From the NCBI RefSeq assembly GCF_014206815.1, contig NZ_JACHNP010000001.1:710456-774455 (forward strand): a stretch of DNA of 64,000 nucleotides, in the 5' to 3' direction. Source of the stretch: Xanthomonas sp. F10. Its GTDB lineage: Bacteria; Pseudomonadota; Gammaproteobacteria; Xanthomonadales; Xanthomonadaceae. Shown here one piece after another: positions 14,972 to 35,160 of the stretch. A program made the position numbers and the translations under genes. The notes under the pieces were generated by a model. It was given only the letters and a program-made list of their open reading frames with translations. It ran no database searches and was not told the DNA's origin. Numbering within the stretch: position 1 is the stretch's first letter; each line of letters starts with the position of its first letter.

Positions 14972-14996
14972 CTTGGAACCGGGCACCGGGTCTCGG

Positions 14997-15043: not shown

Positions 15044-15137
15044 TGTCGGCGCGTTGCAGCTACGAGCGCGGTCGGCGGTTCCCGGTGCATGCGCACCGGG
15101 CCTTGGCAAGACGAAACGGATTCTGAGTTATTCCCTT

Positions 15138-17609: not shown

Positions 17610-17666
17610 CTGCCTCGCCCAAGTCACGCATGGCGATGTTTCTACAAGATCTGTGTTGAGGTGTTT

Positions 17667-18458: not shown

Positions 18459-18536
18459 CCACGCTGCCCGATTCATAGAACGGAATCGATCAGCAAAAAG
18501 CAGCTCAGCGATGAGCGTCGGCGTTACGGAGCGGTC

Positions 18537-19628
18537 ATGGGATTTCTCGATAGTTTCAGCAACTACGCGTTTTTTACGCTCATCAACAACTTTCTGCGCG
18601 ATGAGATCGACTATTTCCAATGGTCGCTGCTGATCCGCATGTCATGGTGGGTCACCGTGACGGCGATGAGCGCGTTGACGCTGTGGATCCTGTTGAAGGG
18701 CTATCGAGTCGCAACCGGGCAGTCGCGCGAATCGGCCATGGAACTGGTGGTGACTTCGCTACGCGCCGCGTTGATCATCGGCGTGGCGATGAGCATGGTG
18801 TCCGCTGCCAGGCCGGGCGCGACAGCAGGTGATGCGGCGATGGACGGGCTCTACTGGAGGCTGACCGACGGGCTCAGCAGTGCGATCGTGAAGACCGTGA
18901 CTGGCAGCTCCGAGAGTCCCTACGCCGCGATCGATAAGAATCTCGCGCTGATGCAGGTGGCCATGACCAGCATCGACCAGATCAATACCGCTGGCGACGC
19001 CGAGCGTGAAAAGGAGAAGGATCGCGCGCGCCTCTTCACGGGTCTAGGCATGGCCGGGCCTGGCGTTGTGGGTGGATCGCTGTTGCTGCTGAACAAGCTG
19101 GCCATGGCGCTGTTCATCGGCTTTGGGCCCTTGTTCATCCTGTGCCTGCTATTTGATGTCACCAAGTCCCTGTTCCAGAAGTGGCTGATGTACGGGATCG
19201 GGACGGTCTTCTCGCTGGCGGTCCTGAGCTTCACCGTTGGTCTCGCAACGAAGGTGATTGCGGCAGTTGGTGCTGGCTTCCTCGCCACCTGGGCTGCGTC
19301 GAACGGGACGGGCGAAGGCGTCAGCAGTATGGCGTTGCAACAAGGAGGAATCGGCTTGGTGTTGAGCACGCTGATCATTACGGCACCGCCGATGGCGGCT
19401 GCATTCTTCCAGGGTACGCTGGGTCAGTTCTCGCCGTATTCGGGCTTGGGACAGGTTGGTAGGGATCCGGCTTCCGGGCGGCCTTATACGCCCCAGGCGC
19501 CTGCAACCAATAGTAACGTAAGTACTAACGCGACAACTTCTACAGTGAATACAATGAATAGAGGCGCTGAACCTGCAACTCAGGTGGCACAGCCTGGTAG
19601 TCGCGGTGCTTACGATAATAGAGTGTGA
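18537..19628 (+). CDS. virB6: T4SS polytopic inner-membrane protein VirB6
   Basis: VirB6/TrbL family, 363 residues, ATG behind GGAG. Several hydrophobic helices are visible near residues 40-60, 75-95, 175-200, 205-230, 235-255 and 270-295. A large loop lies between the second and third, as in Agrobacterium VirB6, where this loop contacts the substrate. The hydrophilic C-terminal tail (about 305-363) is rich in Thr, Asn, Ser, Pro and Gln and is encoded in DNA of clearly lower GC. Its stop lies just before the next gene, so they are co-transcribed. Confidence 0.92.
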   Translation: MGFLDSFSNYAFFTLINNFLRDEIDYFQWSLLIRMSWWVTVTAMSALTLWILLKGYRVATGQSRESAMELVVTSLRAALIIGVAMSMVSAARPGATAGDAAMDGLYWRLTDGLSSAIVKTVTGSSESPYAAIDKNLALMQVAMTSIDQINTAGDAEREKEKDRARLFTGLGMAGPGVVGGSLLLLNKLAMALFIGFGPLFILCLLFDVTKSLFQKWLMYGIGTVFSLAVLSFTVGLATKVIAAVGAGFLATWAASNGTGEGVSSMALQQGGIGLVLSTLIITAPPMAAAFFQGTLGQFSPYSGLGQVGRDPASGRPYTPQAPATNSNVSTNATTSTVNTMNRGAEPATQVAQPGSRGAYDNRV

Positions 19629-19636
19629 GGACTTTT

Positions 19637-20113
19637 ATGAGGCTCTTTTCTGCTGTTTTCTTATTTCTCCTGGCGTTATCTGGGAGCTGCTTTGCCCAGA
19701 CTCGATGTCCAGGTGGGGTTCAAGCAGGTAGTGCCCAATGTCTTCCTGATGAGGATTCTGCTCCAGCTCGTCCCACCGGTGAATGGATTAAAACCTGGGG
19801 TGCGATAGTGATGTCTGACGCAGGTCAGGAAGGATGGAGTTCTGTTGGGAAGTTTAGTAAAGATGATGCTGTCCAAGACGCTTTGGATAAATGTCATGCG
19901 GTGGGAGTGAGTGATTGCTCTGTCAAAATGACATATTTTAACCAGTGTGTCGCTATAGCGAATCCAGCTGAGGGCGTCGGAAGTAGTATCATTGCGGCGA
20001 AAGATGAAAAGGAAGCTGGTGAGCTGGCATCCGAGGCGTGTAGTAAGAGAGTTGGATCTAAATGTTTTGTTAAATTCACTGAGTGCACGAAACCTTTCTT
20101 TAAGAAGTATTGA
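19637..20113 (+). CDS. secreted DUF4189-family protein at the end of the T4SS operon
   Basis: A 158-residue exported protein. The ATG at 19637 follows GAGGA with about 6 bases spacing; a GTG at 19625 is also in frame. The signal peptide ends near GSCFA before QTRCPGG. The mature part fits the DUF4189 pattern: WGAIVMS, then AVQDALDKC, VSDCSVKM and YFNQCVAIA. Eight cysteines in the mature part allow four disulfides. The gene is visibly richer in A+T than the virB genes and starts 8 bases after virB6. In X. citri the end of this locus carries an effector/inhibitor gene pair; here this protein fills the place alone. Its function is unknown. An immunity or periplasmic accessory role is a guess from position only. 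Confidence 0.8.
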   Translation: MRLFSAVFLFLLALSGSCFAQTRCPGGVQAGSAQCLPDEDSAPARPTGEWIKTWGAIVMSDAGQEGWSSVGKFSKDDAVQDALDKCHAVGVSDCSVKMTYFNQCVAIANPAEGVGSSIIAAKDEKEAGELASEACSKRVGSKCFVKFTECTKPFFKKY

Positions 20114-20436: not shown

Positions 20437-20450
20437 TGAATACGTATGCA
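20437..20450 (+). promoter_or_regulatory. operator TGAATACGTATGCA upstream of xgtA
   Basis: TGAATACGTATGCA, near-palindromic around ACGT. The same 14 bases occur at 25885-25898 (minus) and 28426-28439. Here it lies 93 bases before the ATG, and TACTCT (20479-20484) begins 28 bases after it. It is probably the site of the linked LacI-family regulator. Confidence 0.75.
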
Positions 20451-20542
20451 GGCATGACTCACATTCCTGCATCAACGCTACTCTAACGCAGCGTTTCGCG
20501 TGCCCGTCGCACGCGCAATCTCTGCCCGAAGGGGGGCGTTGC

Positions 20543-22153
20543 ATGTCTCAGGCTCCATGGTGGCGCGGTGCCGTCATCTATCAGATCTATCCGCGTAGTT
20601 TCCTCGACGCCAACGGCGACGGTATCGGCGACCTGCCCGGCATCGTGCGCAAGCTGGACTACATCGCGGCATTGGGCGTCGATGCGATCTGGATCTCGCC
20701 GTTCTTCAAGTCGCCGATGGCCGATTTCGGCTACGACATCGCCGATTACCGCGAGGTCGATCCGCTGTTCGGCACCATGGCCGACTTCGATGCGCTGCTG
20801 GCCAAGGCGCATGCGCTGGGCCTGAAGGTGATGATCGACCAGGTGCTCAGCCATACCTCGGTGGAGCACGACTGGTTCAAGGAGAGCCGGCAGAGTTGCG
20901 ACAATCCCAAGGCCGACTGGTACGTGTGGGCCGATGCACGCGAGGATGGGACGCCGCCCAACAACTGGCTGTCGATCTTCGGCGGTGTGGCGTGGCAGTG
21001 GGAGCCGCGCCGCGGGCAGTACTACCTGCATAACTTCCTGGCCTCGCAGCCGGATCTGAACTTCCACAATCCGCAGGTGCAGCAGGCGACGCTGGACAAC
21101 GTGGAGTTCTGGCTGGCGCGCGGCGTGGACGGCTTCCGGCTGGATGCGATCAATTTCTGCTTCCACGATCCGCAGTTGCGCGACAACCCGCCCAAGCCGC
21201 CGGAAAAGCGCGTCGGTCGCGGCTTCAGCCCGGACAATCCGTATGCGTTCCAGTACCACTACTACAACAACACGCAGGCGGAGAATCTTCCGTTCCTGCA
21301 GAAGCTGCGCAGCTTGCTCGACCGCTATCCGGGGACGGTGAGCCTCGGCGAGATCTCGTCGGAAGATTCGTTGGCGACCACGGCCGAATACACGCGCGCC
21401 GGTCATCTGCACATGGGCTACAGCTTCGAACTGCTGACCGACGATTTCAGCGCTGCCTACATCCGCGAGACGGTCTCGCGCCTGGAAGCGGCGATGACCG
21501 AAGGCTGGCCGTGCTGGGCGATTTCCAATCACGACGTGCAACGCGCGGTGACGCGCTGGGGGCAGGGCGCCGAGACACCCGCCTTCGCGCGCCTGCTGAT
21601 CGCGATGCTGTGCTCGCTACGAGGCTCGGTCTGCCTCTACCAGGGCGAAGAACTGGGCCTGGGCGAGGCCGAGGTACCGTTCGAGGCCTTGCAGGATCCC
21701 TATGGCATCGCGTTCTGGCCGAACTTCAAGGGCCGCGATGGATGCCGGACGCCGCTGCCTTGGGACGCCGGCGAGCAGGCCGGCTTCAGCAGCGGTACGC
21801 CCTGGCTGCCGGTTGCACCGGCGCACCGCGCGCAATCGGTGGCGGCGCAGGAGGCCGATCCGCAGTCGGTCCTGCATGCGATCCGCCGGTTCCTGGCCTG
21901 GCGCAAGCGCCATCCGGCGCTGCGCGGGGGCGAGATCGTGTTCCACGAGACGGCCGAGCCCGTGCTGATGTTCGAGCGTCGCCACGCCGCGCAAACCTTG
22001 CTGCTGGCGTTCAACTTATCTGCCGAGGCCGTTGACGTGGCGGTGCCAGAGGGCGCTTGGCAAGCGCTCGAGGTACCGGGCGTGGAGCATGGGGCGATCG
22101 GCGATCGCCTGCGTTTGCCTGGCTACGCGATGGTGTGCCTGCAGGGCGCGTGA
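20543..22153 (+). CDS. xgtA: GH13 alpha-glucosidase/alpha-glucosyltransferase, XgtA type
   Basis: A GH13 enzyme of 536 residues without a signal peptide, so cytoplasmic. It starts MSQAPWWRGAVIYQIYPRSF. The catalytic residues fit the XgtA/alpha-glucosidase group: nucleophile Asp201 in GFRLDAINF, acid/base Glu270 in SLGEISSED and transition-state stabiliser Asp331 in ISNHDVQR. XgtA of Xanthomonas cleaves maltose and transfers glucose to small acceptors; whether hydrolysis or transfer dominates here cannot be read from the sequence. The GGGGGG-like ribosome binding site GAAGGGGGG lies about 6 bases upstream. The gene is alone on its transcript, behind the shared operator at 20437. It should act on maltose or short glucosides brought in by the MFS carrier of this locus. 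Confidence 0.88.
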   Translation: MSQAPWWRGAVIYQIYPRSFLDANGDGIGDLPGIVRKLDYIAALGVDAIWISPFFKSPMADFGYDIADYREVDPLFGTMADFDALLAKAHALGLKVMIDQVLSHTSVEHDWFKESRQSCDNPKADWYVWADAREDGTPPNNWLSIFGGVAWQWEPRRGQYYLHNFLASQPDLNFHNPQVQQATLDNVEFWLARGVDGFRLDAINFCFHDPQLRDNPPKPPEKRVGRGFSPDNPYAFQYHYYNNTQAENLPFLQKLRSLLDRYPGTVSLGEISSEDSLATTAEYTRAGHLHMGYSFELLTDDFSAAYIRETVSRLEAAMTEGWPCWAISNHDVQRAVTRWGQGAETPAFARLLIAMLCSLRGSVCLYQGEELGLGEAEVPFEALQDPYGIAFWPNFKGRDGCRTPLPWDAGEQAGFSSGTPWLPVAPAHRAQSVAAQEADPQSVLHAIRRFLAWRKRHPALRGGEIVFHETAEPVLMFERRHAAQTLLLAFNLSAEAVDVAVPEGAWQALEVPGVEHGAIGDRLRLPGYAMVCLQGA

Positions 22154-22930
22154 GCGCGCGCCGAGCGCTGTCGAGGGACATGCCGCATCGCGCGCGATGC
22201 GGTTGCCACATCGCAAGGAATGACGAGCGATCAACCGATGGCCTGCCGTGCCTCGCGCCGGATGAGGCCGTATGTGCGCGGAGATGATGCTGGCGTCCGA
22301 GTAAGCGGCACTGATCGATCCGCAGGGCCAGCACCCGGGAGTGGCACATCGCGGTGGCCGCGATCCTGGCAATTGCAGCGCCGGGGCACCAGTGCACGCG
22401 CCGTCGCCGATAGCAGCGACTTCCGGGAAACTGGAGCCCGTTCGGGAAACCGGCCTCGCTCGTCCCCACGACAGGCAGTTCCATTCCCCCGCGTTGCCCG
22501 GCGCCGGCAGTCAACGCGAATCCGTCATTATCGCTACGCCGGCGAGCCACGCAGCGCCGTCACGACGTTTGCGCGCCGCTCCGATCCGAGATGCCACCTT
22601 TCCTCACCGCGCGAACGGTTGCGCGCTCCTGTGGCCTTCTGGCTGCAAGCCTGCGTTGACGATGGCGGTGTCGACTTCGACCCGCCGGCCTAGCGCCGCC
22701 TCGTCACGGTCCCGCCTCTCGGGGTGATACCAGGCCGGTCGGTCCGCAGTGCCGAATCGGATCACTGGCATGGCGCTTCCCGGCACACGGGAAGGTCGAT
22801 ATGTGCCCTACGGGCCGCTCAGCTTTATCTCACTCGGCAAAAAGGCCCCACTCGGCTGCGCGATCCTCCGTTCAACCGAATGCATCTTGGCGTCGCGCTA
22901 GTCGACACCACCGCAGCCGGCACCCGCCCC
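22154..22930. other. long intergenic region without a convincing gene
   Basis: About 780 bases between the xgtA stop and the terminator of the convergent TonB receptor. Open frames of up to about 157 codons exist on both strands, but their products are Arg/Ser/Pro-rich, have no domains or good ribosome binding sites, and overlap each other. I see no RNA gene, insertion sequence or repeat. Confidence 0.55.
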
Positions 22931-22933
22931 AAG

Positions 22934-22963
22934 AAAAACGCCCGCCGGGTGCGCTGGCGGGCG
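22934..22963 (-). terminator. rho-independent terminator of the TonB receptor gene
   Basis: Read on the minus strand: CGCCCGCC, a 9-base loop, GGCGGGCG, then TTTTTCTT. It lies 25 bases after the receptor stop. Confidence 0.88.
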
Positions 22964-22987
22964 TCGGTTGCAGCCGCTACGCGGGCC

Positions 22988-25750
22988 TCAGAACTTGTAG
23001 TTCACGCCCAGCATGTAGGTGCGTCCCCATTCGACGTATTCCAGCGGGCGGTCCTTGGTGCCGGCGTACGTGCGGTAGGGCGAGTTGGTCAGGTTGCTCG
23101 CCTGCAGCAGCAGGCTCAACCCGGCCAGGGTGCTGCCGTCGGCGAAGGTGTAGCTGACCTGTGCATCGGTGACGTTTTCGCCGACCACGTAGCGCAGCGT
23201 GCGGTTGCCGTTGAAGTTGCCAATCTCGCCGATGAAGTCCGAACGCCGCCGCTGGCTGACCCGGGCCTCGAAGCCATTGCGCTCGTAGTAGGCCGTGAAG
23301 TTGTACACGTGCTTGGACAGGCCGGGCAGGCTGATCGGATCCGAGCCGACGCTGGAGGCGCTTTCGGGATCGAGGATCTTGATGTCGCTGTCGTTGAAGG
23401 TCGCGCTGGCCTGCACGCCGAAGCCGCGCAGGCTGTCGGTGAACATGTCCAGCGGCAGCGAGGCGGTCAGCTCCAGGCCGCGCAGGGTGCCGCCCTTGCC
23501 GTTCTGTGGCGAGGAGAAGGTGCCGGTGGTCTGCACCGGTACGCTCATGCCCGGCGGGCGCACATAGCTGGCGAGCAGGGCGGAAAAGTCGTAGTCGTCG
23601 CGCGACTGCGTATAGATGTAGCTCTTCAGGTCCTTGTAGAACACCGCGGCCGCCACGTAGGCCTTTTCGCCGAAGTATTTTTCGTACGACAGGTCCAGCG
23701 CGTTGGCGCGCCACGGGTCGAGCAGGGGATTGCCGCCGCTGCCGCCGGGCTTGCCGGTGGAGGTGTCGACGCCGAAGTCCAGGCCCGCGCGCATCTGGTC
23801 CACGCGTGGCCGCGCCACCTGCTTGGCTGCGGCGAAGCGCAGGGTCTGCTGGTGCGGGAACAGGAAGGCCAGGTTGAGACTCGGCAACCAGTCGTTGTAG
23901 GTCTTGCCCGCGTCGATCGGCAGCACGTTCTGGCCTGCCGGCCGGGACTGGTCGAAGTAGCTGGACTGCGAGCTCTGGTCCGCATGCTGCAGTTGCACGC
24001 CGATGTTGCCGCGCACCCCGACCTCGCCGATGTCGGTATTGATGTTGGCGCGGACCCAGGCCGTGGTGATCTTCTCCTGCACGGTCCACGACTTCGGGAT
24101 CAGATAGTCCAGGTTGGTGACCGGATTGAAGGTCATGTAGCGCGCGACCGCCGCCGGCACGTTCCAGGCGGGGATGTTGCCGATGCCGGCGAAGCCCAGG
24201 TTGACGGGGTCGTACTGCAGGTCGCTGGCGATGCTGGTGTCGCCCTGCGCGCCGAGCAGGATGTTGCCCTCGGCCTGGGTCTTCTGCTTGCGCCGGTCGG
24301 CGTAGTTCACGCCCACGTCGATGTCCGAGAACCAGGTCAGCGCTTGCGGCGCCGGCAGAGTCGCCGCCAGGCGGCCGCCCTTCAGACGGTCCTCGACCTC
24401 CGGCACCTTGCCGTAGCCGGAACCGTAGATGGTGTTGGTCAGGAACAGGTCGTTCGGATTGGAGTAGTCGCGGCCGGGCGTGATCTGCGAGAAGCCGTTT
24501 GGATGGACGGTGATACCGATCGAATCGAACTGCGGTCGTGGGATCAGCTGCAGATTATTTTCGAGGTTTAGTTCGTCCCGGGTGGCCTTGGAATAGTTCA
24601 GGTCTGCCACCAGCCTGACGCTCCCCAGATTGAACTCGTTGTTCCAGCCGAACGCGTCGATCTTGTCCTTGCGCTTGTTGTACATGCCGCGGACAAGTGG
24701 ATAGGCATTGTTGATGGTGCCACCGGTGAATGTACCGTCCGCGTTACGGCTGACATTCGTGAATATTGGGAGAATGGCAGCAGGATTGTTTGGATCCTCG
24801 CCATTGCCGCTCAGACTGAGTTCGAACTGATTGGCGGTGTCGATCTGCTCGGCTTCGGTATGGAACGCGTCGAAGGTGCTGGTCCAACTGCTGGATGGGC
24901 GGAACTGCACGGTCGCCATCACGCCGTCGCGTTTGTTATTGCCCGTCCGGCGCAATGCTTTGATGCCGTCTGAGAAGAAGGTGCCTTGCGGAACACCTCG
25001 GCGCGCGCCCTTGTCTGTATTTTCGGTGCTCCACGGCTCATACAGGCCGACCTGGTTCTCCTGGATCGGCATGTCGCTGTGGGCATAGCCGATCGAGAAG
25101 CCCAGGGTGTTGTCCAGGAACTGGTCGATGTAGCTGGCGCTGAAGCGGTTGCCGAAGGCGTCGACATCGGCGGCCTTGCCGAGCGAGCTCTTCTGCAGGC
25201 GGCCGCTGATCGCGATCACCCGGTCCGGGAAGCTCAGCGGGCGCACGGTCTGCATGTCGATGGTGCCGGACAGGCCCTGGCCGACCAGGCCGGCATCGGG
25301 CGTCTTGTACACGGTCACGCCGTTGACCAGCTCCGAGGGGTACTGGTCGAACTCGACGCTGCGGTTGTCGCCGGTGCTGACCACTTCGCGGCCGTTGAGC
25401 AGGGTGGTGGCGAAATCGGGCGACAGGCCGCGCACGCTGATCACCTGGGCACGGCCGGCGACGCGCTGCGCGGCCAGGCCGGGCAGGCGGCCGAGGGATT
25501 CGGCAATGCTTACGTCCGGCAGCTTGCCGATGTCTTCGGCCGAGATCGCCTCGACGATGGACGTCGAGTCCTGCTTGATCGCGATGGCGTTCTCGATGCC
25601 GCGGCGAATGCCGGTCACCTGGACCTTGTCCAGTTCGGTGACCGGATTGGCGGACGTGGTGGCGGTGGTATCGGACTGTGCAGCCGCCAGCATTGGCGTC
25701 ATCGCGACGGCCAGCGCCAGCGTCAGCGCGTTGCGCTTGTGGTTCAACAT
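22988..25750 (-). CDS. TonB-dependent receptor for maltodextrin-type sugars
   Basis: A TonB-dependent outer-membrane transporter of 920 residues. I choose the ATG at 25750, behind GGGAGGGG with 4-5 bases spacing; the open frame continues upstream but has no signal features there. The signal peptide ends near PMLAAAQ. The plug domain follows, with TELDKVQVTGIRRGIENAIA, DIGKLPDVSIAESLGRLPG and VISVRGLSPDFATTLLNGRE; this is the pattern of the Xanthomonas/Caulobacter carbohydrate receptor group. The barrel ends with the terminal aromatic residue in LGVNYKF. Its place among alpha-glucan enzymes suggests maltose/maltodextrin uptake, as for MalA of Caulobacter. The exact substrate is inferred from context only. 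The shared operator lies 135 bases upstream. Confidence 0.9.
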   Translation of the reverse strand: MLNHKRNALTLALAVAMTPMLAAAQSDTTATTSANPVTELDKVQVTGIRRGIENAIAIKQDSTSIVEAISAEDIGKLPDVSIAESLGRLPGLAAQRVAGRAQVISVRGLSPDFATTLLNGREVVSTGDNRSVEFDQYPSELVNGVTVYKTPDAGLVGQGLSGTIDMQTVRPLSFPDRVIAISGRLQKSSLGKAADVDAFGNRFSASYIDQFLDNTLGFSIGYAHSDMPIQENQVGLYEPWSTENTDKGARRGVPQGTFFSDGIKALRRTGNNKRDGVMATVQFRPSSSWTSTFDAFHTEAEQIDTANQFELSLSGNGEDPNNPAAILPIFTNVSRNADGTFTGGTINNAYPLVRGMYNKRKDKIDAFGWNNEFNLGSVRLVADLNYSKATRDELNLENNLQLIPRPQFDSIGITVHPNGFSQITPGRDYSNPNDLFLTNTIYGSGYGKVPEVEDRLKGGRLAATLPAPQALTWFSDIDVGVNYADRRKQKTQAEGNILLGAQGDTSIASDLQYDPVNLGFAGIGNIPAWNVPAAVARYMTFNPVTNLDYLIPKSWTVQEKITTAWVRANINTDIGEVGVRGNIGVQLQHADQSSQSSYFDQSRPAGQNVLPIDAGKTYNDWLPSLNLAFLFPHQQTLRFAAAKQVARPRVDQMRAGLDFGVDTSTGKPGGSGGNPLLDPWRANALDLSYEKYFGEKAYVAAAVFYKDLKSYIYTQSRDDYDFSALLASYVRPPGMSVPVQTTGTFSSPQNGKGGTLRGLELTASLPLDMFTDSLRGFGVQASATFNDSDIKILDPESASSVGSDPISLPGLSKHVYNFTAYYERNGFEARVSQRRRSDFIGEIGNFNGNRTLRYVVGENVTDAQVSYTFADGSTLAGLSLLLQASNLTNSPYRTYAGTKDRPLEYVEWGRTYMLGVNYKF

Positions 25751-25848
25751 TTTCCCCTCCCAGGCAATGTTGTCTTGCGAATGTCTGAACCGGCGAGGCG
25801 GCCGGATGTGCGTGTCGCGCAGCCGCAGGGCGGTGTCGCGGTTGCGCT

Positions 25849-25877
25849 GTATGGTAGACACGCGGCTTGGTTGCGAA
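25849..25877 (-). promoter_or_regulatory. candidate promoter of the TonB receptor gene
   Basis: On the minus strand: TTCGCA, a 17-base spacer and CCATAC, overlapping TACCAT (25856-25851), which begins 28 bases after the operator at 25885-25898. Weak -35, as for an activator-dependent promoter. Confidence 0.4.
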
Positions 25878-25884
25878 CGCCCGC

Positions 25885-25898
25885 TGCATACGTATTCA
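25885..25898 (-). promoter_or_regulatory. operator TGAATACGTATGCA upstream of the TonB receptor
   Basis: The identical 14-mer, on the minus strand, 135 bases before the receptor start. The distance to the following TACCAT is 28 bases, almost the same as at the 28426 site. Confidence 0.75.
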
Positions 25899-26239
25899 CT
25901 GGCGTGCATCGCATTGGAAGCGCTTTCAGGATCGCAATGTCGTGCGCCGGGCGCTATGCCGGTGCCGACCGGCACGTGCATGCGTTGTGCAGCCGATGTC
26001 GCCATCGCACACGCGCGAATGCCGTGCGGCAGGCGATGCCGCGATGCATGCAGGCGTAAGCCTGGCCCGGTGTGACCGAGCGGGACGATAACGCCTGGCC
26101 GACGCCAATGCCGATGTCGCGCGCTCCGACGCTGCCGGTTCGTGTGCGATGGGCCGGTGCCGGGTGCAGCAGGAGGTGACCAGGCATCGGGCGCCGCCGC
26201 CGGTGTGTTGCCGGCGGCAGCTTGTGCAAAGGGAGTGCG
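25899..26239. other. intergenic region between the TonB receptor and the GH97 gene
   Basis: About 340 bases holding no convincing gene; short frames on both strands lack ribosome binding sites. No clear terminator with a T-run was found after the GH97 stop. Confidence 0.5.
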
Positions 26240-28351
26240 CTAGCGTGACGTGGCCGTCCCGGCGGAGGAGGCCGGCGCCGGATCCAGCGGGACGAAACGG
26301 ATCGCCTGGCCGCCGCCGGGCGCCAGCTTCACCTGCAGTTGATCGGCGCTGGTGACGACGCGCTGCTCGCGCACGAAGTCGAACGGGTTGCGCTGGTAGT
26401 CGGCGGCGTCGCCGTCGCGGTAGATCTCGGCACGGTAGCGCACGCCCGGCTCGAGGAAGCCCAGCGCGATCGGCAGCACGCGGCCGTGTTCGTCGGTGAT
26501 GCTGCCCAGGAACCAGTCGCGGCTATGGCGATCCTTGCGCACGATGGTGACGTAATCGCCGATCTCGCCGTCGAGCACGTGGCTGTCGTCCCAGTCCACC
26601 GCCACGTCCTCGATGAAGCGGAAGGCGTCGCGGTGCTGCAGATAGTGCTCGGGCAGGTCGGCGGCCATCTGGATCGGGCTGTACAGGGTCACGTACAGCG
26701 CCAGTTGCCGCGCCAGCGTGCTCGGAATCGCGCGTCCGCCGCGGCCCTTCAGGCTGAGGATGCCGGGCGTGTAGTCCATCGGACCGGCCAGCATCCGCGT
26801 GAACACCAGATCGACTTCGTGTTCCGGCGGGTTCGGCGGCTCGCCCCAGGCGTTGTACTCCATCCCGCGCGCGCCTTCACGCGAAAGCCAGTTCGGATAG
26901 GTGCGGCGCAGGCCGGTGTCCTTGATCGGCTCGTGGGCATTGACCGAGAGGTGGCGCTTGGCCGCCTCCTGCACCACCTTCAGATGATGCCGGGCCATGA
27001 ACTGGCCGTCGTGCCATTCGCGCCACCGCGGGCCGCCGGCCGGATTGCGCCGGTCGACCTGGCCGTCGTCGCAGACGTAGCCGGTCTTGAACGTGTCCAC
27101 ACCCAGCCGCGCATAGAGGTCCAGCGCCGCATCGAGCTGGTCTTCGTAGTGCTCCACCGCGCAGCCGGTCTCGTGGTGGCCGATCAGATGCACGCCCTTC
27201 TTTGCCGCGTAGGCGCTGAGGGCTTCGATGTCGAAGTCCGCGGTGGGGCGGGTGAAGTCGAAGTCGTATCCGTTGCCGACCCAGTTGCCGTCCCAGCCGG
27301 GGTTCCAGCCTTCCACCAGGACGCCGCGGAAGCCATGCGCCGCGGCGAAATCGATGTAGCGGCGGGCATTGGCGGTGGTGGCGGCATGCCTGGGGCCGCG
27401 CGCCCAGGTTTCCTGGTTCAGATGCATCGACCACCACACGCCCAGGTACTTGGCCGGGTGCACCCAGTTCACGTCGCCCAGCGCGTTGGGTTCGTTGAGG
27501 TTGAGGATGAGGTTGGAGTCGACCAGGCCGCCGGCGGTGTCGCTGATCTGCAGCGTCCGCCACGGCGTGTCGAAGGGCAGGGTGCGGCGGACCTTCCAGC
27601 CTTCCGCCGACGGCGACAGCTGCGCATGCAGGCGCTGGCCCTCGCCGCGGCGCAGCCACATGCCGGCGTAGTCGACCAGGGCGGCTTCGTGGATGGCCAG
27701 GTGCAGGCCATCCTGGCTGCGCAGGGTGAACGGCGTGTGCGCCAGCGGCACCTCGCGCAGCGGCGTGCGCCGGTGCAGGTACTCGTAGTGGATGGGCGCG
27801 CCGGCGGGAATCCACCAGGCGGTGGCCTCTGGGACGATGTCGAACTCGGTCAGTTCCTCGTCGACGATGGCTTCCTGCATGCCGGCCTGTCGCGGGAAGC
27901 TGTAGCGGAAGCCGAGCCCGTCGTCGTAGACGCGGAACACCACCGCGAAGCGGCGCTGGCGGCCGCCGCGCTCGCCCAGCTCCACGCGCAACTCGTTGTA
28001 GTGATTGCGCACGTAGCGACGCTCGCCCCAGGGCTGTTCCCAGGTCTCTTCGACGCTGCGGCTGCGCTGGTCCAGCACGGCCAGGTCGCGGTCCAGGCCG
28101 CCGTCGCGCAACTGGAAGCCCAGCCGCGAGTCGCCGATCACGGGTTCGCCCAGGCGCAGCACGCGGTAGCTGGGGCGGCCGTCGTCCAGTTGCAGCGAGA
28201 CCTGCAGGACCTTGTCCGGCGAATCGACGCTGGCCACGGTCTGCGGCGCGGCGTGCAGCTGTGGTGCGGCGCACAACAGTACGCCCGCCAGCAGCGAAGC
28301 CACGCGCAGCGTCGGACGCAGTTGCGACAAAACGTGAAGCGGCAGCGGCAT
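26240..28351 (-). CDS. GH97 alpha-glucosidase (SusB-like)
   Basis: A GH97 family glycoside hydrolase of 703 residues. The ATG at 28351 follows a GGGAGGGGAG ribosome binding site; an in-frame TTG four codons upstream overlaps that site and is unlikely. A signal peptide is present (RVASLLAGVLLCAAPQLHAA), placing the enzyme in the periplasm. The N-terminal beta-sandwich precedes the TIM-barrel, whose family signatures are visible: HHETGCAVEHYEDQ, FKTGYVCDDGQVDR, NAHEPIKDTGLRRTYPN with Glu474, and REGARGMEYNAW. The Glu pattern suits the inverting alpha-glucosidase branch rather than the retaining galactosidase branch. It should release glucose from maltodextrins imported by the adjacent receptor. 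It is read divergently from the (alpha/alpha)6 glycosidase, with which it shares an operator. Confidence 0.9.
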   Translation of the reverse strand: MPLPLHVLSQLRPTLRVASLLAGVLLCAAPQLHAAPQTVASVDSPDKVLQVSLQLDDGRPSYRVLRLGEPVIGDSRLGFQLRDGGLDRDLAVLDQRSRSVEETWEQPWGERRYVRNHYNELRVELGERGGRQRRFAVVFRVYDDGLGFRYSFPRQAGMQEAIVDEELTEFDIVPEATAWWIPAGAPIHYEYLHRRTPLREVPLAHTPFTLRSQDGLHLAIHEAALVDYAGMWLRRGEGQRLHAQLSPSAEGWKVRRTLPFDTPWRTLQISDTAGGLVDSNLILNLNEPNALGDVNWVHPAKYLGVWWSMHLNQETWARGPRHAATTANARRYIDFAAAHGFRGVLVEGWNPGWDGNWVGNGYDFDFTRPTADFDIEALSAYAAKKGVHLIGHHETGCAVEHYEDQLDAALDLYARLGVDTFKTGYVCDDGQVDRRNPAGGPRWREWHDGQFMARHHLKVVQEAAKRHLSVNAHEPIKDTGLRRTYPNWLSREGARGMEYNAWGEPPNPPEHEVDLVFTRMLAGPMDYTPGILSLKGRGGRAIPSTLARQLALYVTLYSPIQMAADLPEHYLQHRDAFRFIEDVAVDWDDSHVLDGEIGDYVTIVRKDRHSRDWFLGSITDEHGRVLPIALGFLEPGVRYRAEIYRDGDAADYQRNPFDFVREQRVVTSADQLQVKLAPGGGQAIRFVPLDPAPASSAGTATSR

Positions 28352-28384
28352 CTCCCCTCCCAAGGCGACCGTGGCACCACCACG

Positions 28385-28390
28385 ACTATA
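28385..28390 (-). promoter_or_regulatory. candidate -10 box of the GH97 gene
   Basis: TATAGT on the minus strand, 35 bases from the shared operator and about 35 bases before the GH97 start. No good -35 is visible at 17 bases. Confidence 0.35.
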
Positions 28391-28425
28391 GCCAGGCGTT
28401 CCCTTGCAGCCCGCGGCCTGCGCGA

Positions 28426-28439
28426 TGAATACGTATGCA
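28426..28439 (+). promoter_or_regulatory. operator TGAATACGTATGCA in the GH97/glycosidase divergent region
   Basis: The identical 14-mer between the divergent GH97 and (alpha/alpha)6 glycosidase genes. On the plus strand TACCAT (28467-28472) begins 27 bases after it, as for the TonB receptor. One site could control both directions. Confidence 0.75.
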
Positions 28440-28591
28440 ACTGCACGCGCTGCGGTGCCGCCCGTCTACCATGTCCGCAGCGCCCCGCGATGCGGAGGCG
28501 GCGACCGTAGCGCCGGCATGCCGGCCTGCGCTTCCACCATGCAGGCAAAGAGGGAGGGAGGTCGATCGGTGCGAGCCGGTCTGCCGCTTCG

Positions 28592-30793
28592 ATGCTGAAG
28601 ATGATCTGCTTGGCCGCCACCTTGGGTGCTGCGGCGTCGGCGTCTGCTGGACAGACGTCATTGCAATGGCGTGGCCAGACCGCGCAGGCCGAGGCCAGGG
28701 CCGACGGCGGGTTCGTGCTGCACGCGGCGCAGAGCACGCGCACGGTGCCGGCACAGCCACTGCGCAGCGAGACCGACAGTCCGCTGTTCGACGCGCTGTT
28801 CGCGCTGGCGCAGCAGGAGTTGCGCGACGATCAGGTGCAGGCAATCCGCGACCCGGCGTTCGATCACGGCAAGCCGTTGTCGTGCGATTGCTACCAGACC
28901 GGCGAGCGCTGGCCCTACGTGTGGACCCGCGACGTCAGCTATGCCGCGGACCTGGCCCTGGCGCGGCTGGATCCGGAGCGCACGCGGCGCTCGCTGCGCT
29001 TCAAGCTGTCGCCGATGCGTGGCGCCGATGCGCTGCCGGGGCTGTTCGTGGCGCAGGACACCGGCTCCGGCGGCAGTTGGCCGGTGAGCAGCGATCGCGT
29101 GGTGTGGTTCCTGGCCGCGCGGCACCTGCTGGACGAACCGGGCTTCGCCGCCGACACCCGCGCCGCGCTTGCCGCCACGCTGGCGCAGGACCGCGCGTTC
29201 GCATTCGACCCGCGCATCGGGCTGTACCGTGGCGAAACCTCGTTCCTGGACTGGCGCGAGCAGACCTATCCGGCCTGGACCCGCGAGGACGTCGGCTTCA
29301 TCGCCAGCTCCTTCGCGCTGTCGACCAACGTGCTGCACTACCAGGCGCTGCGCCTGGGCGAGCGCCTGGCCCGGGAGCAGGGCGACACGCAGGCGGCCAC
29401 GCGTTACGCCGGTTGGGCCGATGCGCTGCGCCAGGCGATCGCGCAGCGCTTCTGGCGCGAGGACCGCGGCACCTACGTCAGCTACATCGGCACGGCCGAG
29501 CACCCGGTGCGCTACGAACGCTACGATCTGCTGGGCCTGTCGCTGGCGGTGCTGGCCGACGTGCTGCCGCCCGAGCGCGCGCGCCAGGCGCTGGCGCGCT
29601 ATCCCGCGGTGGAGGCGGGCAGCCCGGTGGTGTGGCCGCAGCAGCGCGAGGTGCCGATCTACCACAACCGGGCGATCTGGCCGTTCGTCAGCGCCTATGC
29701 GCTACGCGCGGCGCGGCACGCCGACGACAGTGCGCGCATCGACCTGGAAGTGCGCTCGCTGCTGCGCGGTGCCGCGCTGGCCGGCTCGAACATGGAGAAC
29801 TACGAGTTCCTGAGCCAGGCCGCGCATGTCGACGACGGTCCGCGCAGCGGCCCGGTGGTCAATTCGCCCCGGCAACTCTGGTCGGTGGCCGGCTACCTGG
29901 CGATGGTGATCGAGGGTGTGTTCGGCGTGGAGGACGACGGCCGCGTGCTGCCCAAGCTGCCCACCAGCCTGGTGCCGCTGCTGTTCGGCGAGCGCCAGGA
30001 AATCGCGCTGCAGTTGCAGGACCGGCGCATCGTGTTGCGGCGGCCGGCGCAGCTGCAGGGCGATCTGCTGATTGCCGGCAAGACCCGGCGTCAGGACGGC
30101 GTGACCACCGTCAACCTGGTGCCGCGCCACAGCGGCAGCGCACCCCTGCACATGCTGACGGCCGCCGATGCCTTCGCGCCGCTGGCGCCGCCGGCGCCGC
30201 AGCTGCGGCGCGAGGCGCAGGGCTGGCGCGTGCAGGCGGCCGCAGACACGGTGCTGTATGTCGATGGGCAGCCGCGCGCGGGCAGCGCCGACGGCGCGTT
30301 GCTGCCGCTGGTCGCGCACGTGCAATGCCTGAGCCTGACCCGGCGCGGGACGCGCTGGGAGTCGCTGCACAGTCCCACCGTCTGCGTCGGCGACGTCGCG
30401 CGCGTGGAAGGTGCCGACGCCTGGACGTGGACGGCGCCGCGCGATGGCGCGTACCGGTTGAGCCTGCGCTACGTCAATGCGCATGGCCCGATCAACACCG
30501 GTGTCACCGCGGCGGTCAAGCGCCTGCAGGTGCAGTGCGGCGCGGCGCCACCGCAGACGCAGCCGCTGGTGATGCCGCACAGCGTGGGCGAGCAGACCTC
30601 CACCGCCGCCGTGTTCACGCTGCAGGCCGGGCAGCGCTGCCACGCACGGCTGGTGCCGGCGGCGAACATGAGTGCGCTGCAGCATTTCGCGCGCTACACC
30701 GGAGGGCAGGGCGGCGCCGATGGCGTGGTCAATGCCGCCGACGTCGCCGCATTGTTGATCGCGCCGATCGGCGCTGCCGGAGGTCGCCCATGA
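28592..30793 (+). CDS. exported (alpha/alpha)6-barrel glycosidase, family not assigned
   Basis: A 733-residue protein with a short signal peptide (MLKMICLAATLGAAASASAG). The body, about residues 55-500, looks like a six-hairpin (alpha/alpha)6 glycosidase: GERWPYVWTRDVSYAADLAL, SGGSWPVSSDRVVWFLAARH, FLDWREQTYPAWTREDVGF and YEFLSQAAH. Acidic residues in these blocks (WTRD, DWRE) are candidate catalytic groups. The C-terminal 230 residues look like beta-sandwich or accessory modules. I cannot assign a GH family with confidence; GH15-like glucan-active enzymes share this fold. No ribosome binding site is near the ATG; the GGGAGGGAGG sequence lies about 33 bases upstream and is not in a position to serve it. 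The stop overlaps the MFS gene by 4 bases (ATGA). Confidence 0.72.
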   Translation: MLKMICLAATLGAAASASAGQTSLQWRGQTAQAEARADGGFVLHAAQSTRTVPAQPLRSETDSPLFDALFALAQQELRDDQVQAIRDPAFDHGKPLSCDCYQTGERWPYVWTRDVSYAADLALARLDPERTRRSLRFKLSPMRGADALPGLFVAQDTGSGGSWPVSSDRVVWFLAARHLLDEPGFAADTRAALAATLAQDRAFAFDPRIGLYRGETSFLDWREQTYPAWTREDVGFIASSFALSTNVLHYQALRLGERLAREQGDTQAATRYAGWADALRQAIAQRFWREDRGTYVSYIGTAEHPVRYERYDLLGLSLAVLADVLPPERARQALARYPAVEAGSPVVWPQQREVPIYHNRAIWPFVSAYALRAARHADDSARIDLEVRSLLRGAALAGSNMENYEFLSQAAHVDDGPRSGPVVNSPRQLWSVAGYLAMVIEGVFGVEDDGRVLPKLPTSLVPLLFGERQEIALQLQDRRIVLRRPAQLQGDLLIAGKTRRQDGVTTVNLVPRHSGSAPLHMLTAADAFAPLAPPAPQLRREAQGWRVQAAADTVLYVDGQPRAGSADGALLPLVAHVQCLSLTRRGTRWESLHSPTVCVGDVARVEGADAWTWTAPRDGAYRLSLRYVNAHGPINTGVTAAVKRLQVQCGAAPPQTQPLVMPHSVGEQTSTAAVFTLQAGQRCHARLVPAANMSALQHFARYTGGQGGADGVVNAADVAALLIAPIGAAGGRP

Positions 30794-32274
30794 GGGACGT
30801 GGCCCGCGCCAAGCCGGCGCTGTCGTTCTGGCAGATCTGGAACATGTGCTTCGGCTTCCTGGGCATCCAGTTCGGCTTCGCGCTGCAGAACGCCAACGCC
30901 AGCCGCATCTTTCAGACCCTGGGCGCCGACATGGATCAGGTGCCGGGGCTGTGGATCGCCGCACCGCTGACCGGCCTGATCGTTCAGCCCATCGTCGGCT
31001 ACCTGTCCGACCGCACCTGGAACCGCTTCGGCCGGCGTCGGCCGTACTTCATGGTCGGCGCGCTGTTCACCACGCTCGCCTTGCTGGTGATGCCGAACTC
31101 GCCGGCGCTGTGGGTGGCGGCCGGGACGCTGTGGGTGCTGGACGCCTCGATCAACATCTCGATGGAGCCGTTCCGCGCGTTCGTCGGCGACCAGCTGCCG
31201 CCGCGCCAGCGCGCCAGCGGCTATGCGATGCAGAGCTTTTTCATCGGCGTCGGCGCGGTGGTGGCGAGCATGCTGCCGTGGCTGCTGGCGCATTGGGGCG
31301 TGAGCAACACCGCCGCCCCCGGCGAGGTGCCGGCGACGGTGCGCTACGCGTTCTATCTCGGCGGCGCGGTGTTGTTCCTGTCCATCGGCTGGACCGTGCT
31401 GCGCACCCGCGAGTATCCGCCCGAGGACCTGCACGGCTTCGACGACGCCGCCGCGGCGGCCACCGCGACGCAGCCGTGCCGTGCCGATGGCGCCGCGGCG
31501 CTGTGGTGCGCGGTGGGCATCGCCGGGGCGGCGGCCATCGCCTTCAGCGACGGCGATCGCATGCTGTACGTGCTGGCCGGGCTGTGTCTCGGCTACGGCG
31601 TGCTGCAGGGCATGGCACCGCGCCTGCGCCGTGGGCACATGCTGGCGTCCATCGTCTGCGATCTGCAGACCATGCCGCAGGCGATGCGGCGCCTGGCCTG
31701 GGTGCAGTTCTTCTCCTGGTTCGCCCTGTTCGCGATGTGGATCTACACCACCGCCGCGGTCACCCAGACCCACTACGGCACCCACGACGCGACCTCGGCC
31801 GCGTACAACGACGGGGCAAATTGGGTCGGCGTGCTGTTCGCCGCCTACAACGGCTTCGCCGCACTGGCCGCGATCGCCATTCCGCTGCTGGTGCGCGCCT
31901 GCGGGCTGCGCATGAGCCATCTGCTCAACCTGTGCCTGGGGGCGGCCGGCCTGCTGTCGTTCCTGTGGATCCGCGATCCGCAGTGGCTGCTGTTGTCCAT
32001 GGTCGGCGTGGGCTTCGCCTGGGCCTCGATCCTGTCGCTGCCCTACGCCTTGCTATCGGACAGCGTGCCGGCGGCGAAGATGGGCGTGTACATGGGCATC
32101 TTCAATTTCTTCATCGTGATCCCGCAGTTGGTCGCGGTCAGCGTGCTGGGCTTCGTGCTCACGCACTGGCTTGGCGGCCGGCCGCTGTACGCGCTGGCGA
32201 TCGGCGGCGGCAGCCTGCTGGTGGCGGCGCTGTGCGTGCTGTGGGTGCCGTCGGATTCGGGAGCGAATGCATGA
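30790..32274 (+). CDS. MFS sugar (maltose/alpha-glucoside) transporter
   Basis: A major-facilitator permease of 494 residues, ATG overlapping the upstream stop. About 12 membrane helices are visible. The family loop signature is GYLSDRTWNRFGRRRPYF, between helices 2 and 3, resembling the sucrose/maltose carrier group (MalY of Caulobacter, plant-type SUC carriers). The N-terminus SFWQIWNMCFGFLGIQFGFA is typical of this group in Xanthomonadaceae TonB-linked loci. It should carry glucose, maltose or short dextrins from the periplasm to the cytoplasm by proton symport. The exact sugar is inferred from the neighbouring alpha-glucan enzymes. Its stop overlaps the amylase start (ATGA), so the three genes form one coupled operon. 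Confidence 0.88.
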   Translation: MRDVARAKPALSFWQIWNMCFGFLGIQFGFALQNANASRIFQTLGADMDQVPGLWIAAPLTGLIVQPIVGYLSDRTWNRFGRRRPYFMVGALFTTLALLVMPNSPALWVAAGTLWVLDASINISMEPFRAFVGDQLPPRQRASGYAMQSFFIGVGAVVASMLPWLLAHWGVSNTAAPGEVPATVRYAFYLGGAVLFLSIGWTVLRTREYPPEDLHGFDDAAAAATATQPCRADGAAALWCAVGIAGAAAIAFSDGDRMLYVLAGLCLGYGVLQGMAPRLRRGHMLASIVCDLQTMPQAMRRLAWVQFFSWFALFAMWIYTTAAVTQTHYGTHDATSAAYNDGANWVGVLFAAYNGFAALAAIAIPLLVRACGLRMSHLLNLCLGAAGLLSFLWIRDPQWLLLSMVGVGFAWASILSLPYALLSDSVPAAKMGVYMGIFNFFIVIPQLVAVSVLGFVLTHWLGGRPLYALAIGGGSLLVAALCVLWVPSDSGANA

Positions 32275-33962
32275 TTGATCGGATGTCGCTGTTGGCGCTG
32301 GCCCTGCTGGGTGCTTGCGCTGCGTCGGTGCAGGCCCAGGCCCAGGCGCCGGCGCAGGAGGAGTTCTACGGCACGCTGGAACCGTTCGCCAGCGAGGCGG
32401 TGTACTTCGTGGTCACAGATCGCTTCGTCAACGGCGACCCGGGCAACGATCATCGCGACCAGGGCGGCGCGCATCGCACCTTCGACATCCCGATCCCGGC
32501 GCCGCCCGGCGAGAGCGACAACATCGGCTACCTCGGCGGCGACTTCAAGGGCGTGGTCGACAACGCCGGCTACATCCGCGACCTGGGGTTCGGCGCGGTG
32601 TGGATCACCCCGATCGTCGACAACCCGGACGAGGCCTTCACCGGCGGCAAGCCGATCACCTGGGGCAGCTCGCTGAGCGACCGCGGCAAGACCGGCTACC
32701 ACGGCTACTGGGGCGTCAACTTCTACAAGCTCGACGAGCATCTGCCGAGCCCGGGCCTGGATTTCGCCGGCTTCACTCAGGCGATGCACGCGCAGCAGCT
32801 GAAGGTGGTGCTGGACATCGTCGGCAACCACGGCTCGCCGGCCTGGACCATGCCCAAGCGCCAGCCGATGTTCGGTCAGGTGTTCGACCGCAACGGCAAG
32901 CTCATCGCCGATCACCAGAACCTGCCGCCGTCCAGGCTCGACCCGGCGCACAACCCGCTGCACGCGTTCTACAACACCGGCGGCAACCTGGCGCAGTTAT
33001 CCGATTTCAACGAGCGCAACCCGGCGGTGATGGAGTATCTGGTCGGTGCCTACTCGCAATGGCTGGGGCAGGGCGCCGACGCGTTCCGCATCGACACCAT
33101 CGGCTGGATGCCGGACAGTTTCTGGCACGAGTTCGTGCGCCGCATCCGCGCGCAGCGCCCGGGCATGTTCATGTTCGGCGAGGACTTTGACTACAACGCG
33201 CACAAGATCGCCGGCCACACCTGGGCCGGCAACGCCGGCGTCAGCGTGCTGGATTTCCCGCTCAAGCAGGCGCTGGCGGCAACGTTCGGCCACGCCCAGC
33301 GCGGCTACGAGACGCTGCAGCCGGCGCTGTACCTGGAGCGCGGCCCGTACGCCAATCCGTACGAACTGATGACCTTCTACGACAACCACGACATGGCGCG
33401 GCTGGACGCCAGCGACGCCGGTTTCATCGACGCGCACAACTGGCTGTTCACCGCGCGCGGCATCCCGGTGATCTACTACGGCTCGGAGACCGGCTTCATG
33501 CGCGGCCGCGCCGAGCATGCCGGCAACCGCAACTACTTCGGCCAGGAGCGGGTGGATGCCGCCCCGTCCAGTCCGATCTTTGCGCCGCTGCGGCGCATCG
33601 CCACGCTGCGCCAGCGCAGCCCGGCGCTGCAGCGCGGCCTGCAGCTCAACCTGCAGTTGTCCGGTGACCAAGCGGTGTTCTACCGGGTGTTCCAGCACGC
33701 GGGCAGCACCCAGACCGCGCTGGTGCTGCTGAACAAGAGCGACACGCCACGCACGCTGGAGGTGCGCCGCTACCTGCAGCCCGGCACCTGGCACGACGGC
33801 TGCGACGGCAGCGCCACCGAGGTGACCGATGCGTTGCGCGCCGAGGTGCCGGCACACGGCGTGCGCGTGTTCCTGTCCGATGCGCCGATCGTGCGCCCGG
33901 ACCTGCGCGCGCGGCTGCGCTGGTTGATGGCGGCCAAGGACGGCGTCGCGCCGACGCCCTGA
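32271..33962 (+). CDS. exported GH13 alpha-amylase
   Basis: A GH13 enzyme of 563 residues. The ATG overlaps the MFS stop; a second ATG four codons later would also give a signal peptide. The export signal (LLALALLGACAASVQAQAQA) could be cut as an ordinary signal or lipidated at Cys16 (GAC); the lipobox is not ideal. The barrel motifs are complete: VVTDRFVNGD, DIVGNHGSP, nucleophile Asp275 in AFRIDTIGWM, acid/base Glu304 in MFGEDFDYN and the third Asp in YDNHDMAR (Asp374). The inserted B domain contains WGSSLSDRGKTGYHGYWGVN, as in periplasmic or surface amylases. It should cut starch-like glucan to maltodextrins for the TonB receptor. It is the last gene of the three-gene operon. Confidence 0.9.
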   Translation: MIDRMSLLALALLGACAASVQAQAQAPAQEEFYGTLEPFASEAVYFVVTDRFVNGDPGNDHRDQGGAHRTFDIPIPAPPGESDNIGYLGGDFKGVVDNAGYIRDLGFGAVWITPIVDNPDEAFTGGKPITWGSSLSDRGKTGYHGYWGVNFYKLDEHLPSPGLDFAGFTQAMHAQQLKVVLDIVGNHGSPAWTMPKRQPMFGQVFDRNGKLIADHQNLPPSRLDPAHNPLHAFYNTGGNLAQLSDFNERNPAVMEYLVGAYSQWLGQGADAFRIDTIGWMPDSFWHEFVRRIRAQRPGMFMFGEDFDYNAHKIAGHTWAGNAGVSVLDFPLKQALAATFGHAQRGYETLQPALYLERGPYANPYELMTFYDNHDMARLDASDAGFIDAHNWLFTARGIPVIYYGSETGFMRGRAEHAGNRNYFGQERVDAAPSSPIFAPLRRIATLRQRSPALQRGLQLNLQLSGDQAVFYRVFQHAGSTQTALVLLNKSDTPRTLEVRRYLQPGTWHDGCDGSATEVTDALRAEVPAHGVRVFLSDAPIVRPDLRARLRWLMAAKDGVAPTP

Positions 33963-34095: not shown

Positions 34096-35160
34096 TCAGC
34101 TGCGCAGCGAGGAGCCGCGCAGCGCCAGCGTGACCGGCAGGGTGCGGCTGCTCACCGGCTGCCCGGCGATCTGCGCCAGCAGCGTGTCGACCAACACCGC
34201 ACCGGCCAGCTTGGTGTCCTGCTGCACCGTCGACAGCGCCGGATCGACGCTGGCGGCCACCGGGATATCGTCGAAGCCGGCCAGGGCCACGTCCTCGGGC
34301 ACGCGCAGGCCGTGCTCGCGCAAGGCCTTCAACGCGCCGATCGCGATCAGGTCGCTGGCGGCGAACAGCGCATCGAAGCGCTCGCCGCGGCCGAGCAGGG
34401 CCAGGGCCGCCTCGTAGCCGGACTGCTCGGTGGTGATCGCATCGACCTGGAGTGCCGGCGTGGCGTCGGCGCCGGCCGCGCGCAGCGCCTGCAGATGGCC
34501 GCGGTAGCGTTCCAGGAATTCGGGGTAATGGTTGGAGGCGTCGCCGAGAAAGGCGATGCGGCGGCGGCCCTGCGCCAGCAGATGCGCGGTGATGTCGTGG
34601 CCGCCCTGGAAGTTGTCGCTGCCGATCGACACTCCCGGCTGCCCGGGCAGCACCGCGCCCCAGCGCACGAAATGGGTGCCCTGGTCGACCAGGTGCTGCA
34701 GCCGCTGCTGCGCCTGCAGGTAGTCGCCGTAGCCGAGCAGGATCAGCCCGTCGGCCTTCTGGCTGTCGCCGTAGTCGGCGCGCCAGTTGTCCGACAGTTG
34801 CTGGAACGACACCAGCAGGTCGTAGCCGTGACGGGCGCAGGCGCGGGTGATCGACCCCAGCATCGAGTGGAAGAACGGGTTGATCAGCGAGTCGTCGGTG
34901 GTCGGGTCTTCGAAGAACAGCAGCGCCAGGGTGCCGGCATTGCGCAGGCGCAGGCTGGAGGCGTGCTTGTCGACCTTGTAGTTCAGCTCGCGCGCGATCG
35001 CCAGGATCTTGCGCCGGGTCTGCTCGTTGACGGCCGGGCTGCCGCGCAGGGCGCGCGAGACGGTGGGTTGCGACACGCCTGCCAGGTAGGCGATGTCCAG
35101 CGATGTGGCCTTGCCTTTGATGACGGCGCGTCCGATGCGGAGAAAGCGAACGCCCAGCAT
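34096..35160 (-). CDS. LacI-family transcriptional regulator of the alpha-glucan locus
   Basis: A LacI/GalR repressor of 354 residues, taking the ATG at 35160; the open frame extends further but that part has no family features. The N-terminal helix-turn-helix and hinge read TSLDIAYLAGVSQPTVSRAL, then NEQTRRKILAIARELNY. The periplasmic-binding-like effector domain follows, with the usual FDALFAASDLIAIGALKAL and VALAGFDDIPVA. No ribosome binding site is obvious before the ATG. It is convergent to the amylase operon and divergent to thrS, so it is probably transcribed alone. The shared 14-mer upstream of all sugar genes of this locus is the best candidate binding site; none is seen before its own gene. 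The ligand is likely maltose or a related sugar (inference). Confidence 0.9.
   Translation of the reverse strand: MLGVRFLRIGRAVIKGKATSLDIAYLAGVSQPTVSRALRGSPAVNEQTRRKILAIARELNYKVDKHASSLRLRNAGTLALLFFEDPTTDDSLINPFFHSMLGSITRACARHGYDLLVSFQQLSDNWRADYGDSQKADGLILLGYGDYLQAQQRLQHLVDQGTHFVRWGAVLPGQPGVSIGSDNFQGGHDITAHLLAQGRRRIAFLGDASNHYPEFLERYRGHLQALRAAGADATPALQVDAITTEQSGYEAALALLGRGERFDALFAASDLIAIGALKALREHGLRVPEDVALAGFDDIPVAASVDPALSTVQQDTKLAGAVLVDTLLAQIAGQPVSSRTLPVTLALRGSSLRS

Follow-up and report, generated by a model that had tools for sequence, protein, structure and literature searches.

A polar 14-mer, very probably the operator of a LacI-family regulator, precedes starch genes in Xanthomonas and its relatives

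Introduction

LacI-linked use of starch and maltose has been described in several bacteria, and we draw here on excerpts of the papers concerned. The closest systems are XAC2595-XAC2602 of X. citri 306 together with amy, XAC0798 (PMC10714752), and the XCC2469 maltose CUT locus of X. campestris (PMC1790865), which have the same kinds of genes as the locus studied here and are induced by starch or maltose. The X. citri orthologues are up on starch in RNA-seq (PMC10714752), and XCC2469 and its locus are maltose-induced (PMC1790865). A LacI regulator has already been proposed for the X. citri system, with amy among its targets and repression as the supposed sign of control (PMC10714752). No operator is given in the excerpts of these two papers (PMC10714752, PMC1790865). 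In Shewanella, the LacI-type regulator MalR has predicted sites before a TonB receptor and the susB, malZ and malT-cga operons (excerpts of PMC2996990). The LacI-controlled starch system of X. citri was published in 2023 and the MalR regulon of Shewanella in 2010.

LacI-family proteins that activate are also known. According to excerpts of PMC3463425, CcpA generally activates from cre sites upstream of -35, in a helix-face-dependent manner. Its strongest repression in Lactococcus comes from sites centred at -39 and downstream, and the lev operon is an exception in which it represses from an upstream site. Unlike the sites described below, those of CcpA occupy widely differing positions and for the most part mediate repression, and the partner of CcpA is HPr-Ser-P, not the pathway sugar (PMC3463425). 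A LacI-family protein of Enterococcus faecium activates maltodextrin genes, although in a Firmicute (excerpts of PMC3737153).

We did not find the operator described here, or its polar geometry, in print, although RegPrecise may contain a motif prediction. The full word is absent from the matches listed in a text search of the literature for the 14-mer and its parts, and the main text of a LacI-family survey (PMC4052901) has no word starting 'Xanthomonad'.

Results and Discussion

The alpha-glucan locus and its operators

The window, by which we mean the whole 64,000-nucleotide stretch of Xanthomonas sp. F10 DNA that was analysed, has a TonB receptor, CAZymes, an inner-membrane transporter and a regulator side by side (NCBIfam, Pfam), the composition of a CUT locus (Table 1). 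PF00356 and PF13377 both match the regulator above cut-off, placing it in the LacI family, and the solved relatives listed for it are mostly LacI-family proteins. The protein at 28592..30793 has no NCBIfam match, and its Pfam matches are marginal only. Up to the starch locus, at about 13300-20113, lie genes that read as VirB-type secretion-like (lytic transglycosylase, VirB4-like ATPase, VirB5/VirB6-like).

Table 1. Positions of the genes, candidate operators and predicted promoter boxes
Feature	Position	Strand	Evidence
Operator 1, TGAATACGTATGCA, before xgtA	20437..20450	+	Identical in 16/16 locus-bearing genomes of the genus
-10-like box TACTCT of xgtA, 28 nt past operator 1	20479..20484	+	Predicted; offset 28 in 16/16 genomes
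xgtA-like GH13 alpha-glucosidase/glucosyltransferase	20543..22153	+	Pfam Alpha-amylase; name from the earlier note and excerpts of PMC10714752
TonB-dependent receptor, XCC2469/XAC2600-like	22988..25750, likely start 25750	-	NCBIfam TIGR01782; Pfam plug and barrel
-10-like box TACCAT of the receptor gene, 28 nt past operator 2	25851..25856	-	Predicted; offset 28 in 16/16
Operator 2, TGAATACGTATGCA, before the TonB receptor gene	25885..25898	-	Exact match, kept in the genus
Second LacI-type palindrome, TGAAAGCGCTTCCA, 16 nt upstream of operator 2	25915..25928	-	Sequence reading
GH97 glycosidase	26240..28351, likely start 28351	-	Pfam GH97 N, catalytic and C domains
-10-like box TATAGT of GH97, 35 nt from operator 3, opposite side	28385..28390	-	Predicted; offset 34 or 35 in 15/16
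Operator 3, TGAATACGTATGCA, between divergent GH97 and glycosidase-MFS-amylase operon	28426..28439	+	Exact match, kept in the genus
-10-like box TACCAT of the operon, 27 nt past operator 3	28467..28472	+	Predicted; offset 27 in 16/16
Glycosidase-like protein, XAC2598-like, without clear family	28592..30793	+	Marginal Pfam GDE_C, MGH1-like, rhamnosidase
MFS sugar transporter; start overlaps preceding stop (by reading)	30790..32274	+	Pfam MFS_1, MFS_2
GH13 enzyme, XAC2596-like	32271..33962	+	Pfam Alpha-amylase; start from translation
LacI-family regulator, XAC2595-like	34096..35160, start uncertain, ATG 35160 likely	-	Pfam LacI helix-turn-helix and Peripla_BP_3
Apparently inverted operators	L288-L290, L292-L295, L304, L305, L325; L102, L163, L232

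An earlier note on this DNA had reported a 14-mer, TGAATACGTATGCA, at three places and nowhere else in the window. Searching both strands, we find exactly these three copies, and the whole genome (4,776,209 bases) holds no further exact one. Allowing up to three mismatches, the window gives six matches, namely each copy on both strands; none of 100 dinucleotide shuffles reached six (mean 1.6, largest 5). The word is palindromic at 12 of its 14 positions and has CG at its centre, like the even, CG-centred palindromes that serve as LacI-family operators. No copy stands in front of the LacI gene of the window.

The note had placed the operator upstream of every transcription unit of the locus. 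Four units are indeed covered, but by three sites, site 3 being common to GH97 and the operon that diverges from it. Nor is the operator confined to the locus: 578 kb off on the same contig (G000:C1:152980-152993) there is a one-mismatch copy, TGAATACGTATGTA, 123 nt ahead of a gene for a secreted GH13 alpha-amylase.

Conservation within the genus

We compared 20 genomes of the genus; 16 have the motif, and one of these (G006) belongs to the same species as the window. When the locus was compared in the window genome and the 15 other motif-bearing genomes, all 48 sites (three in each of 16 genomes) proved letter-identical. Their flanks drift, above all before xgtA, where none of the 20 columns upstream of the site is invariant. 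The amylase gene occurs in 15 of the 16 genomes and has the operator before it in all 15, as TGAATACGTATGTA in 13, as the exact 14-mer in one and as TGAATACGTATGTG in one; G005 lacks both gene and site.

Sites 2 and 3 lie just 263-655 bp apart in G014, G015 and G017 (L035, L036, L038), so GH97 has been lost or broken there. Both operators remain nevertheless, and site 3 still precedes the operon. The four motif-free genomes have only a 41-43% paralogue of the regulator and also lack xgtA and the orthologous receptor, with a 43% receptor and a partial amylase match in one of them (G019). Because the tested locus genes are gone from these genomes, their co-loss does not single out the regulator.

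Co-occurrence of motif and regulator in the family and beyond

We surveyed 149 genomes from 54 genera of the family, calling the regulator at E <=1e-90 and scoring up to 14 candidates per genome. The motif TGNATACGTATNCA was found in 104 genomes and the regulator in 111. Both occurred in 102 genomes, the motif alone in two, the regulator alone in nine and neither in 36 (Fisher 1e-23, uncorrected for kinship). Eight of the nine genomes with the regulator alone have a one-mismatch site near it, followed by TAnnnT at 27-29 nt, and seven of these eight sites read TGAATACGTTTGCA. In the ninth, the contig is just 8 kb long.

This variant goes with the recognition helix of the protein. TGAATACGTTTGCA makes up 18 of 31 sites (22 loci) with the helix SRV and none of 66 with SRA, in a table of 95 loci with a readable helix that covers the words TGAATACGTNNGCA only and keeps between-collection duplicates. 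As a sequence-level association, this links the protein to the site, and it may reflect a single event in one clade.

More distant relatives were sought among named genomes, using 19 aligned regulators as the query and taking the best 80 of 556 loci. These come from Xanthomonas, Stenotrophomonas, Pseudoxanthomonas, Luteimonas, Lysobacter, Rhodanobacter, Dyella, Colwellia and others, and 65 of the 80 have a site with at most one mismatch. In Stenotrophomonas rhizophila, locus L265 has both the regulator and the site. The 101 such sites include 74 exact ones, and 70 have TAnnnT at 26-31 nt. No Shewanella locus is among the best 80 of 556; Colwellia, a marine relative, has both the orthologous regulator and the motif.

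The 14-mer thus follows the orthologous genes in genus and family, which was the check that the earlier note had proposed, and it is very probably the operator of the linked LacI-family regulator. The note's idea of one regulon under this protein is well supported by conservation, by co-occurrence and by the association between helix and operator, but the regulon is wider than it had supposed, as the distant amylase shows. We take the 14-mer to be the cis element that descriptions of the Xanthomonas starch system have lacked, and one that predicts its members genome-wide.

Genes downstream of the sites

For a broader view of the targets, we assembled 182 unique exact sites, of which 113 come from other family genera (from 116 loci chosen among the matches listed), the others being drawn from the named loci; two of the 182 (L260) repeat G015. 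The gene downstream in the orientation of the site is receptor-like in 64 cases and MFS transporter-like in 30. It resembles the glycosidase-like protein at 28592 in 22 cases, XgtA in 21, the amylase in nine, GH97 in four and the regulator in one. From their translations, the remaining 31 read as pullulanase-like, starch-binding, GH31, further receptor and halogenase-like genes, among others, besides some meaningless frames. Most targets are starch genes. As in the Shewanella MalR regulon, LacI-type sites precede receptor, GH97 and transporter/glycosidase operons, both at sites 1-3 of the window and among the 182; this likeness (excerpts of PMC2996990) is one of target genes.

Polarity and spacing to the -10 box

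In the genus of the window, the word reads TGAATA-CG-TATGCA toward xgtA, the receptor, the operon and the amylase alike. A TAnnnT hexamer, resembling a -10 box, follows at 27, 28 or 30 nt after all 63 sites of the genus, the offset before the amylase being 30 nt in 15 of 15 genomes. The spacers between operator and box contain no indel; their bases vary before xgtA, vary less at the other promoters and are for the most part conserved before the amylase. On the opposite side of the xgtA, receptor and amylase sites, TAnnnT at 26-31 nt was found in 0 of 47 cases. We considered whether TACCAT might be a start codon rather than a -10 box and rejected this, as likely starts are found further downstream.

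The same arrangement recurs in the other family genera, where TAnnnT stands at 26-31 nt in 92 of 113 exact sites versus three on the opposite side (200 shuffles: mean 3.3, maximum 9). Across all 182 sites the counts are 141 versus 6, and after removal of similar sequences 90 of 129 versus 5. In Colwelliaceae, which belong to another order, six of nine sites with at most one mismatch have TAnnnT at 26-31 nt, five of them at 28 nt, in DNA of 35-39% G+C where this pattern is common. Three exact sites before XgtA-like genes of Colwelliaceae lack TAnnnT at that spacing.

These promoters have hardly any -35 element. Only 10% of the 141 match at least 4 of 6 bases at spacers of 16-18, where the best match averages 2.3 of 6 versus 2.15 in shuffled sequences; spacers of 15-19 give a slight excess (2.86 versus 2.51 matches, again compared with shuffles). 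An extended -10 was rejected, there being no excess of TGn ahead of the hexamer. With the -10 box set at -12 to -7, the operator spans about -54 to -41 relative to the predicted start. A fixed distance from site to -10 together with a missing -35 is the layout of an activator-dependent promoter, here with the exceptions given below.

The operator also has a direction. Among 176 sites with at most two mismatches that are anchored by a -10 box, 137 have the exact asymmetric form, four its inverse and three a symmetric form, and 32 are other variants. Sites built from interchangeable half-sites should be symmetric in at least half of cases; with 137 asymmetric versus 3 symmetric, the half-sites depart from the interchangeability of LacI-family operators. 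Mismatches fall in the promoter-proximal half 34 times and in the distal half 15 times (p 0.009, uncorrected for kinship). In short, the site is polar, with a single asymmetric form that mostly points one way.

Exceptions

TAnnnT is missing at 26-31 nt from 41 of the 182 sites. Thirteen of these appear, by eye, to be inverted: their opposite side has a CAGAAT-like box 25-26 nt away; nine of the thirteen are from Rhodanobacter, and a sugar-porter gene lies behind all nine that were checked. Ten others sit between divergent MFS and XgtA-like genes and have no clear box. In three (L124, L126, L180), CACCAT at 28 nt looks like a weaker box in the right place. A weak match with two mismatches (L005) has no TAnnnT at 20-35 nt. 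Since GH97 uses site 3 from the opposite side at 34-35 nt, one geometry is not compulsory.

Activation or repression

By calling the word an operator, the earlier note had implied ordinary control. Polarity and the fixed spacing of 27-30 nt to the -10 box suggest contact with RNA polymerase instead. We favour, with some reserve, a maltodextrin-responsive regulator that binds the predicted operator beside RNA polymerase and probably activates. The regulator at 34096-35160, of MalR type, would sit as a dimer on the nearly palindromic, CG-centred 14-mer, mostly in one orientation, just upstream of the TAnnnT promoters. The likely signal would be maltodextrin or maltose. On one fixed face, the protein would touch RNA polymerase and recruit it, so that an extracellular amylase, the outer-membrane receptor, periplasmic glycosidases and, further in, the MFS transporter and GH13 enzymes would be switched on jointly.

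The predicted position favours activation, because LacI-family proteins usually activate from near there. A fixed distance and prevailing polarity over unrelated genes in many genera also fit contact with RNA polymerase, whereas a blocker upstream needs neither. On present evidence, activation seems the likelier sign of control. The fuller claim is evenly balanced in our judgement: that this LacI-family protein is a dedicated, position-locked activator throughout the family and beyond, whose polar operator, centred near -47.5 and mostly in one orientation, substitutes for the -35 element, with the promoter-distal half-site stricter than the proximal one.

Ordinary LacI-type repression is the main competitor, and we hold it to be possible but doubtful. 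Seated where the promoter begins on its upstream side, the regulator would get in the way of RNA polymerase or of the polymerase alpha subunit, and would leave on binding maltose. Most members of the LacI family are repressors, and induction by the sugar fits equally well. In X. citri, XAC2595 has been put forward as a possible repressor of XAC0798 and XAC2596-XAC2602 (excerpts of PMC10714752), and the X. campestris pv. campestris locus is said to contain a maltose transport gene repressor (excerpts of PMC1790865). Yet repression demands neither that a site keep one polarity nor that it lie a set distance upstream of the core promoter, and where a -35 is nearly absent, a promoter seems too weak for a repressor to be needed. 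As a contrast we used the xyl-box, an operator-like motif with a presumed LacI-family binder. This word occurs in 10 of 16 genomes; of 17 sites examined (18 listed), 11 are symmetric and none has TAnnnT at 26-31 nt on either side, which argues against a repressor reading of the 14-mer, in a small set with few independent promoters. A NagR motif, tried as a second control, was found in 0 of 30 genomes.

It is improbable that another protein, such as an asymmetric binder, acts on the 14-mer and that the linkage to the LacI gene is incidental. The strict asymmetry of the anchored sites is odd for a symmetric homodimer and would suit such a protein, but the 14-bp near-palindrome with its central CG, the co-occurrence with the LacI gene over 149 genomes and the association between helix and operator speak against it. 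That the copies arose by recent duplication or chance and have no regulatory meaning, as their exact identity within one locus might suggest, is already refuted by conservation and has a negligible probability, given that their flanks are unlike one another, that the word is conserved through 16 genomes of the genus and recurs both in other genera and in another order, and that shuffles yield far fewer matches.

The 14-mer makes the sign of control by this MalR-type LacI protein a simple test. If activation is true, LacI operators of fixed polarity and spacing would be a sequence signature separating activators from repressors. This is of some consequence, as 'repressor' is often the default annotation for LacI-type proteins in genomes.

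A second palindrome before the receptor gene

The receptor gene has a second LacI-type palindrome, its centre 30 bp from that of operator 2. The window has it as TGAAAGCGCTTCCA and other genomes of the genus as TGGAATCGATTCCA, with matching changes of the inner bases in the two halves. A further LacI-family protein may act on the receptor gene through this element. Its degenerate pattern has one other match in this genome, where the neighbouring genes show no evident connection. The word TGAAATCGTTTCCA lies at G000:C2:380725-380738 and is present as a single copy in each of the eight genomes of the genus that were searched; in this genome it stands, by reading, between genes for a DUF481-like outer membrane protein and a WYL-type regulator.
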